Source: Bacillota bacterium
GTDB taxonomy: Bacteria; Bacillota; SHA-98; UBA4971
Direction of reading: 5' to 3'
DNA: 41,168 bases
Assembly (NCBI GenBank): GCA_012841305.1
Contig: DUVA01000251.1
Location: 1 to 41,168 of the forward strand
Made by a program: the position numbers and the translations under genes. Position 1 is the stretch's first letter; the number at the start of each line of letters is the position of its first letter. The notes below the pieces were generated by a model. It made no database searches. It saw only the letters and a program-made list of their open reading frames with translations, and was not told the origin of the DNA. This document shows, piece by piece, positions 7,414 to 32,345 of the stretch.

Positions 7414-7436
7414 GGCGCCCGGAAATCCCGGGCGCC
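7414..7436 (-). terminator. Intercistronic hairpin 3' of the solute-binding-protein gene
   Basis: GGCGCCCGG-aaatc-CCGGGCGCC, 9-bp GC stem between SBP stop and next gene; no T-tract, so attenuating/stabilising rather than a full terminator. Confidence 0.5.
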
Positions 7437-20652: not shown

Positions 20653-20973
20653 AGACAGAACCTCCTGTTTCATCCACCTGTGGTATTAGGCCAATGGCAA
20701 TCTACTGCCAACAGCCAGCAATAAGGCACCCAGGACAGGCTCTGTAGTTCTCTTTTCCCCAAGAATATGATTAGAAGTCAAAGAACCTTACGGCAGCAGG
20801 TATTGAACCACCGGTAGGCTGGATCTGCTTGCGGATCCTGTCGAAGACCGGCGCCGGCTCCGCAATGTGTTGGCGGAAAAGACAGTCTGGAGAAGTCAAC
20901 GTACCAGTTGTCGTGGGCTCCAGATGAGCAGTACAGAACCGGATGATCTTACTTATAGCCTATCAGAGAAGTA

Positions 20974-21048
20974 ATATGTTGTCAATTTTCACACAATCGC
21001 CCCTCCTGCAGGCAGCGTTTTGACAACATATCTCTCCCTTATTATGCT
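20974..21048. promoter_or_regulatory. Divergent promoters sharing a 12-bp inverted repeat
   Basis: ATATGTTGTCAA 20974-20985 and TTGACAACATAT 21020-21031; plus-strand TTGACA(21020-21025)-17-TATGCT(21043-21048); minus-strand TTGACA-17-TAGGCT. Confidence 0.6.
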
Positions 21049-21064
21049 AAGTGATTATGAGACG

Positions 21065-21177
21065 GCCGTTCCCTAATACACCACGTGAAAGCGAACAGGG
21101 GCACCGCTCTTGCCTACATAATCCGCTGTTTGCGTAGGATGGAAAGGGTCGTTACCCCCTGGTGCCCCTGAAACGGC
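21065..21177 (+). ncRNA. Candidate structured RNA of unknown class
   Basis: GCCGTT 21065-21070 pairs AACGGC 21172-21177; CAGGGGCACC 21096-21105 pairs GGTGCCCCTG 21161-21170; internal CCTAC/GTAGG and GGGT/ACCC; lies just downstream of a consensus-like promoter on the same strand. Confidence 0.45.
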
Positions 21178-21205: not shown

Positions 21206-21715
21206 CTACTTTGGATTATACATCCCATGTTGCTGCATGTAGTTGAAGATTCCTTCGCCGTGCTGCTGCTCCTCCTTCTGAATATGCTGCAGCGCTTGAC
21301 GAATATTGGGGTTTACCGACTCGAAGATCGCTGTATCATAAGTTCCGGACACGTATTTCTCGGTCATCAGCATGTCATTACAGAGCATGGCGTCATTTTG
21401 CATGGTCATACCTGCAGTGCCTTGTCCCCCCGGGGACTGCTGCACCTTCCGGCTCATGCCTTGGCCTGCCTGTTGTCCTTGCTGCTGACCTTGCCCTGCC
21501 TGGACGTTCACCTGTTGTCCTTGCAGCAATTGGTTAATGGTATTGTAGTGTTGTTGCTCCTGGGAACCGAACTGGTTGAATAGCTGTTTCAATTGAGGAT
21601 CCTGAGCCTGCTCTGCGTAGTTGGTGTACTTCTCGATGCAGATTTTCTCATGGCTTGACTGGTCCTTCAGTAGTAGTTGCTCCTTTTGGGTAAGTTGAAA
21701 ACCCACTTGAACCAC
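21206..21715 (-). CDS. Spore coat protein CotF-like
   Basis: LTQKEQLLLKDQSSHEKICIEKYTNYAEQAQDPQLKQLFNQFGSQEQQHYNTINQLL; start may be GTG at 21706. Confidence 0.82.
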   Translation of the reverse strand: MVQVGFQLTQKEQLLLKDQSSHEKICIEKYTNYAEQAQDPQLKQLFNQFGSQEQQHYNTINQLLQGQQVNVQAGQGQQQGQQAGQGMSRKVQQSPGGQGTAGMTMQNDAMLCNDMLMTEKYVSGTYDTAIFESVNPNIRQALQHIQKEEQQHGEGIFNYMQQHGMYNPK

Positions 21716-23691: not shown

Positions 23692-23730
23692 GCGCCGACC
23701 CCCGAACGGTTTACTCCGGAAGGTCGGCGC
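23692..23730. terminator. Hairpin between convergent tautomerase and desulfoferrodoxin genes
   Basis: GCGCCGACC...GGTCGGCGC perfect 9-bp stem. Confidence 0.5.
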
Positions 23731-23755: not shown

Positions 23756-24136
23756 CTAAGTGGTTTTCCACAGTCCGTGTTTGTCGCAGTATCCTCTTGC
23801 GGTGATATCGTCTGCTTCAATTTTGAACATGGCCTCGGGGACATCGCCTGGCTCCAGGAATTCCCGATAAGCCTTCCCGTCAGCGATTACCTGTATCCAT
23901 TCAATGAAATGATCCGGATCCATCGGATGAGGGATGCTTCCCACCGCAACCTTCACGCCTGTTTCCGTGCGTTCAACCACTGGAACGTGCTTCTCCCTGG
24001 AAGCGTCCTGGGTGTTCTCAGTCATGAGCGCCATGGGTTTGCCGCAGCATACCAGCTGACCTGCGCCCTGGTGAATCACCTCGACGATATTCCCACAGAT
24101 CTTGCATTTGTAAATCTCCAACCTTTTCGTCATCAT
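23756..24136 (-). CDS. dfx: Desulfoferrodoxin (superoxide reductase)
   Basis: [53 protein letters not shown]. Confidence 0.95.
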
Positions 24137-31097: not shown

Positions 31098-31901
31098 CTA
31101 CTTGGAGACATCCACTCCAAACCACTTCCGAGAGATTTCTCCGTACGTACCGTCTGCCTTGATGGAATCAATCGCTTGGGTGACAGCTTCTCTGAAAGAG
31201 GCATCACTCTTCCTGAAACCAATGCCGATAGACTCCTCTGCCAACTTCTCTTCCAGCACTCGGTAAGCTCCGGCCTGCTTCATTATGTAGTACCTGCCGA
31301 CAAACTCATCCACTACAAGCGCTTGGATGCGGCCGATGGCAAGGTCTGTGAAAGCCTCAGGATATGTGGCATAGAGCTTCAGATCCTTGAACCCCCCGAA
31401 CTTCTTCGCCGCGACCTCCCCTGTGCTGCCCAGCTGCGTGCCGACTACCTTACCTTTGAGGTCAGAAAGGGTGTTGATGTCTTTTGTTTGCTGTTTGACT
31501 ACTATGATCTGTGCCCCATAGATGTAAGGCGGGCTGAAATCGATTTTCTCCGCTCTCTCGTCAGTAATGGTAAGTGTGGACAGAATCATATCGAACTTCC
31601 CGGATTGAAGCGCAAGGATTACTCCGTCCCATGCAGTGGGAACCCACACAATATCAACCCCGAGCCGCCGGCCTATCTCATCTGCAAGATCCACATCAAA
31701 ACCAATAAGGTTACCCTTCTCATCCCTGTACTCCATCGGAGGGAAGGCGTCATCTACGCCTATCCTGATGACACCTGCTGCCTTTACCTTCTCCAACGAA
31801 CCATCGCCAGAAGCGGCCCAAACTACACTACTTGCCGTCAATACAGCAGTCATCACCGAGATCAGCACAACCTGTAACAGTTTTCTTGTGTTCTTTGCCA
31901 T
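31098..31901 (-). CDS. Polar amino acid ABC transporter substrate-binding protein
   Basis: IRIGVDDAFPPMEYRDEKGNLIGFDVDLADEIGRRLG; signal peptide. Confidence 0.94.
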   Translation of the reverse strand: MAKNTRKLLQVVLISVMTAVLTASSVVWAASGDGSLEKVKAAGVIRIGVDDAFPPMEYRDEKGNLIGFDVDLADEIGRRLGVDIVWVPTAWDGVILALQSGKFDMILSTLTITDERAEKIDFSPPYIYGAQIIVVKQQTKDINTLSDLKGKVVGTQLGSTGEVAAKKFGGFKDLKLYATYPEAFTDLAIGRIQALVVDEFVGRYYIMKQAGAYRVLEEKLAEESIGIGFRKSDASFREAVTQAIDSIKADGTYGEISRKWFGVDVSK

Positions 31902-32010: not shown

Positions 32011-32345
32011 AAAAAAATACCTCTCGCCCCATACAAGGGACGAGAGGTGACTCCCGTGGTCCCACCCTAATTGGCTACCCATTTTCGTAGATCGGGTAAC
32101 CCACTCATTGTCCGGTACGGCACACTGTCCTTAGTGGACTGTTGTGATTATACCTCCCCGCAGTAACGGGCGGGACCCGTCAAAGCCTACTTCCATCATA
32201 AAGCCATAGTAACATTTGCACACATGACTCAGTTTCGGTTTGCACTCCGGGGTGTGTTTCAACCGGCGCTTCGTGTCGGGCTCTCACCTTCCCCGACTCG
32301 CTTAGACTCTACATCCGGCCTACTTATCCCCGTCATAGCTTTCTC
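32011..32345 (-). promoter_or_regulatory. T-box leader (tRNA-sensing riboswitch) upstream of the amino acid transporter
   Basis: T-box TTAGGGTGGGACCACGGGAG (32051-32070), terminator ACCTCTCG...CGAGAGGT + T7 (32011-32048), Stem I apical motif AGCGAGTCGGGGAAGGTGAGAGCCCGAC and AGTA/GAA specifier-loop motif. Confidence 0.88.

Follow-up and report, generated by a model that had tools for sequence, protein, structure and literature searches.

The intergenic region between a GH130 gene and a spore-coat gene contains a GC-rich hairpin with a long, branched interior, which raises the question of whether this hairpin is part of a novel RNA transcribed on the + strand, or an element of the coat gene, which is encoded on the - strand. 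An earlier note on this DNA had proposed the former, i.e., a closed + strand unit with its own promoter, in which an outer helix (P1) and a perfect inner helix (P2) enclose two smaller hairpins. We analyzed the window (the whole 41,168-nucleotide stretch of DNA) together with the 13 genomes of the order in our collection, seven of which (G000–G006) belong to the genus of G000, the genome of the window, which comes from an uncultured Bacillota lineage; G005 is its closest relative, and L087 is an eighth relative. Based on these comparisons, the element probably belongs to the coat mRNA on the - strand, where it would form an atypical terminator-like 3'-end hairpin with a long loop. A feature of this kind is most likely ordinary, although the loop is unusually long.

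Genomic setting and covariation of the hairpin

The P1, P2 and CCTAC/GTAGG pairings described in the earlier note are present in the sequence, and all of them occur in the minimum free energy (MFE) structure of the + strand between 21065 and 21177 (-43.3 kcal/mol, z -3.2). P2 joins CAGGGGCACC (21096-21105) to GGTGCCCCTG (21161-21170) through 10/10 Watson-Crick pairs; the stem-loop is 75 nt long in G000 with a loop of 55 nt, and folded alone as the + strand it reaches -35.1 kcal/mol (z -4.0). Other details of the proposed architecture required correction: the 25-nt one-sided loop has the sequence described, but it is not wholly unpaired, as CGU/GCG closes a small hairpin inside it, and the GGGT/ACCC hairpin occurs in the MFE structure only with its register shifted and is weaker in the centroid. 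A scan of the element against Rfam 15 returned no family at the gathering score and none at E ≤ 10 beyond chance, and a plasmid DNA search with the region gave no match. A repeat or mobile element was ruled out, because the hairpin has a single copy in the genome.

The Coat_F gene was found in 7/7 genomes of the genus, and in all seven P2 lies about 35–60 nt beyond its stop codon (~35 nt in G000). The neighbor on the far side of the hairpin is not the same throughout. In G000, G005 and G001 it is GH130 with its leader; G002, G003 and G006 have a convergent GH3 gene there, after which come an ABC transporter and NamZ; and in G004 gamma-glutamyltranspeptidase takes this place. The helix therefore accompanies the coat gene rather than GH130 or the + strand promoter. 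In L087, whose coat gene is 77% identical to that of the window, an 8-bp stem (GGGGGCCC/GGGCCCCC) with a 4-nt loop and the tail TTCGCC is located 41 nt beyond the coat stop codon. In other Clostridia, hairpins likewise stand at the 3' ends of many coat genes, some with clear T runs. A covariance model of the element (R1) matched five of the 13 genomes of the order, once each and always at the coat locus, while three weak matches among 200 genomes of the phylum (E 0.02-0.08) were read as chance. The element is thus not independent of one neighboring gene: within the order, the model finds it solely beside the coat gene, and its T-rich tail lies on the coat strand.

Coordinates of the main features of the locus, as positions in the window
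Feature	Position	Strand	Remarks
GH130 gene promoter-like site, TTGACA-17-TAGGCT	20957..20985	-	from leader alignment
Promoter-like site, TTGACA-17-TATGCT	21020..21048	+	10/12 consensus; second hexamer TATGCC in G005
P1 5' arm, GCCGTT (partner AACGGC, 21172-21177)	21065..21070	+	proposed in the earlier note; not conserved
T-rich tail	21086..21095	-	TTCGCTTTCA; 5 T among first 8; directly after hairpin
P2 hairpin with 55-nt branched interior	21096..21170	-	arms 21170-21161 / 21105-21096; read as coat mRNA 3' untranslated region
Coat_F spore-coat protein gene	21206..21715	-	Pfam PF07875, E 1.2e-30; hairpin stands at its 3' end

The P2 arms have changed in a compensatory manner. Six of the ten pairs (1, 2, 5, 7, 8 and 10 from the outside) show compensatory changes among the seven species, and 63 of 70 cells are Watson-Crick pairs, compared to 50.9 ± 2.3 after shuffling, with 0/10,000 shuffles reaching 63; the shuffle redealt the 3' arms among species and left relatedness uncontrolled. 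These pairs were counted with the arms anchored by hand, because a MAFFT alignment of the seven hairpins misplaced G003. The pattern of substitutions indicates that P2 is under selection. P1 behaves differently: G005 retains 5/6 of its pairs, one of them as G-U, and has lost the sixth, no compensatory change was detected, and the other five genomes of the genus have no counterpart at the same position. Judged from this comparison, P1 is probably fortuitous.

The interior of the hairpin keeps neither its length nor its fold. Loop lengths are 55 nt in G000, 58 in G005, 30 in G003, 53 in G002, 51 in G006, 16 in G001 and 55 in G004; the predicted interior pairs vary among species, with no common fold inside P2. 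In G001 the interior is a short loop, and in G003 it is an unpaired loop on the + strand. The closed P1-P2 unit is therefore not borne out by the relatives, which support P2 only and, except for G005, have its interior replaced or lost. When G000 was compared to G005, the 47-nt stretch from the promoter to P2, containing the P1 5' arm and the 25-nt loop, had the lowest identity of the intergenic region (60%), followed by the P2 hairpin (77%), the coat-side 3' untranslated stretch (86%) and the core of the GH130 leader (95%; about 80% with G002).

In three genomes, a block encoding NamZ, two ABC permeases, a solute-binding protein and a GH3 glycosidase is located between GH130 and the coat gene (G002 C48, L046; G003 C312, L048; G006 C5, L047). 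This block likely serves cell-wall sugar recycling. NamZ was searched for in the G000, G005 and G001 assemblies and was not found.

The strand of the hairpin

Several features of the hairpin differ between the two strands. Among the 8 nt that follow the stem on the - strand, there are 5 T in G000, 3 in G005, 5 in G003, 1 in G002, 4 in G006, 3 in G001 and 5 in G004; the corresponding values for the + strand are 0, 0, 0, 0, 2, 1 and 2. The counterparts of the G000 tail are TTTTTCGCCT in G003 and TTTGTTGCCG in G004, where TT already lies within the stem. The quality of the T tract is uneven, being interrupted in G000 and poor in G002 and G005, with TTTTT in G003 and TTTTTGTT in G004. In addition, P2 has three A.C mismatches when read on the + strand, all of which become G-U pairs on the - strand; the + strand itself has no G-U pair. 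The stability of the interior is ambiguous: the - strand folds better in 5/7 species and the + strand in two, including G000, whose hairpin has a z of -4.0 on the + strand vs. -2.7 on the - strand. Taken together, the tail asymmetry, the A.C/G-U pattern and the ambiguous interior folding favor the - strand, on which the coat gene is encoded.

Possible roles at the 3' end of the coat mRNA

The hairpin may bring about actual termination or a stabilization of the 3' end. In the proposed sequence of events, the polymerase would transcribe the coat gene, run past the stop codon and copy P2 about 35 nt further on; the GC-rich P2 helix would then fold in the nascent RNA immediately before the modest T-rich stretch TTCGCTTT, and the folded helix would promote termination and/or give the coat mRNA a stable 3' end. 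In species where GH3 is convergent on the coat gene, the hairpin could also keep the two transcripts apart. The sequence between the arms would be largely filler within a long loop that is tolerated, and P1 and the + strand promoter would be lineage-specific neighbors.

With the intrinsic (Rho-independent) terminators of Bacillota, the element shares the location of a GC-rich stem shortly beyond the stop codon and the compensatory change of this stem while the loop drifts; a T-rich stretch follows the stem on the strand of the gene to a degree that varies among the species. It differs from them in its 55-nt loop with inner hairpins and in the T tract that is interrupted in G000; terminators mapped by Term-seq have a median loop of 4 nt (PMC12207403). 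TransTermHP accepts loops of ≤ 13 nt and hairpins of ≤ 59 nt (PMC12207403), limits that the P2 hairpin of G000 (loop 55, total 75 nt) exceeds; G001 has a loop of 16 nt and L087 one of 4 nt. Because the loop and the total length exceed these limits and the T tract is interrupted in G000, we describe the hairpin as terminator-like and do not file it as a canonical terminator. A pattern scan did not list this hairpin with its T-rich tail. Terminator stems are known to evolve through compensatory change (PMC5381666), so the covariation of P2 alone is no argument for a regulatory RNA. The long stem-loop, the broken T tail, the absence from the pattern scan, the somewhat better + strand fold in G000 and a loop that is conserved between G000 and G005 above the stretch preceding it all count against the terminator-like reading.

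To place the hairpin among similar structures of its own genome, we surveyed perfect stems of ≥ 9 bp with ≥ 6 G-C pairs and loops of up to 75 nt in 210 kb of G000, excluding tRNAs and using simple longest-ORF gene calls. Eight of the 29 stems were located within 60 nt past a stop codon, compared to a mean of 0.73 and a maximum of 4 for random placement in 2000 trials. Two other such stems in the window follow - strand genes, at 7414-7436 (gene end 7453; tail TCTCGCTACC) and at 23692-23730 (gene end 23756; tail TTTCTTTAGC). The survey suggests that Ca. Fermentithermobacillaceae often close their genes with GC-rich hairpins and weak T tracts, an arrangement that would escape standard terminator predictors. 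The structure at 23692-23730 is likewise a long-looped GC-rich hairpin on the - strand, with 9 bp and a 21-nt loop, 26 nt beyond the stop codon of the gene at 23756-24136.

Two further accounts overlap with the terminator-like reading, and we hold each of them only tentatively. One is a bidirectional terminator, in which the hairpin would stop the coat transcript on the - strand as well as either the GH3 transcript (G002, G003, G006) or the one from the + strand promoter (G000, G005). Bidirectional terminators at convergent genes are known (PMC5381666), GH3 is convergent in three species, and a perfect helix is usable on both strands; however, the + strand tails hold just 0–2 T per 8 nt, and the hairpin is retained in G000, G005, G001 and G004 without an adjoining convergent gene. 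This extension to the second strand is therefore rather unlikely. The other account, a branch of the preferred one, is a putative stabilizing or processing structure of the mRNA 3' end: transcription would end farther on, e.g., through Rho, and the hairpin would block exonucleases and yield a long-lived sporulation mRNA. Such an element would share with the stabilizing hairpins of bacterial 3' untranslated regions a stable helix at the mRNA 3' end, for which a T tract is dispensable. The weak T tract of several species and the over-long loop fit this account, and in G000 it is common for a GC-rich stem with a poor T run to lie beyond a stop codon; it remains doubtful, given the good T runs that follow the stem immediately in G003 and G004.

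The + strand alternative

The rival reading is a lineage-specific small RNA that would start on the + strand at ~21055, comprise P1, P2 and the inner hairpins, and work by itself or as a cis-antisense RNA directed at the coat mRNA 3' end. We consider such an RNA very unlikely. In its favor, the consensus-like promoter that the earlier note saw ending at 21048 is indeed there, with ten of twelve consensus positions, the fold has the low z-score given above, and G005 retains the TTGACAACA hexamer region and most of the P1 pairing, while its CCTAC hairpin carries one compensatory change. The promoter is, however, weaker in G005 owing to its altered second hexamer, and no such site was found when it was sought in the five other genomes (G001, G002, G003, G004 and G006). 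The promoter-to-P2 stretch is also the least conserved part of the region, and P1 lacks any compensatory change. As the + strand has no T-rich tail, a small RNA transcribed from it would lack an end. With the promoter and P1 confined to G000 and G005, a free-standing + strand RNA does not emerge from the comparison; what survives of the novel structured RNA is a structured element outside Rfam, and probably not a + strand regulatory RNA. It is highly improbable that in the G000/G005 lineage a + strand promoter newly arisen beside the hairpin yields a small structured antisense RNA, which would base-pair with the coat mRNA at its 3' end and tune sporulation.

The resemblance to stand-alone RNAs such as 6S (RF00013) lies in a predicted long helix, an asymmetric internal loop and a promoter-like site upstream, but the element of the window has neither a conserved architecture nor an Rfam match. 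We also rejected 6S as an identity for either the element or the GH130 leader, as 6S was located elsewhere in G000 and in all 12 related genomes. For RNA discovery, this locus illustrates that a good z-score, true covariation and a promoter-like match can together mimic a novel structured RNA, and that genus-wide synteny assigns this hairpin to the 3' end of the oppositely oriented coat gene.

A perfect 12-nt inverted repeat, ATATGTTGTCAA...TTGACAACATAT (20974-20985 and 21020-21031), spans the two divergent promoter-like sites. G005 preserves most of the second arm (TTGACAACACAT), which is missing elsewhere in the genus. The repeat may represent an operator or a duplication of the -35 region.

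The GH130 gene has a 5' leader of ~275 nt on the - strand (20674-20950), behind a conserved promoter of the TTGACA-17-TATTCT type. The second hexamer of this promoter is TATTCT in G005 and G002 and TATTAT in G001, and G006 has TTGACT and TATTCT. A model of the leader gave strong matches in G000, G005, G002 and G006 only, and the leader has no match in Rfam. The leader is strongly conserved, but it is at most a putative structured RNA: in the four close genomes, no pair had both of its positions changed, and its z was -1.2. Elsewhere in the window, a T-box leader (RF00230, 113 bits) was identified on the - strand at 32033-32345, upstream of a gene on that strand with its start at 31901.
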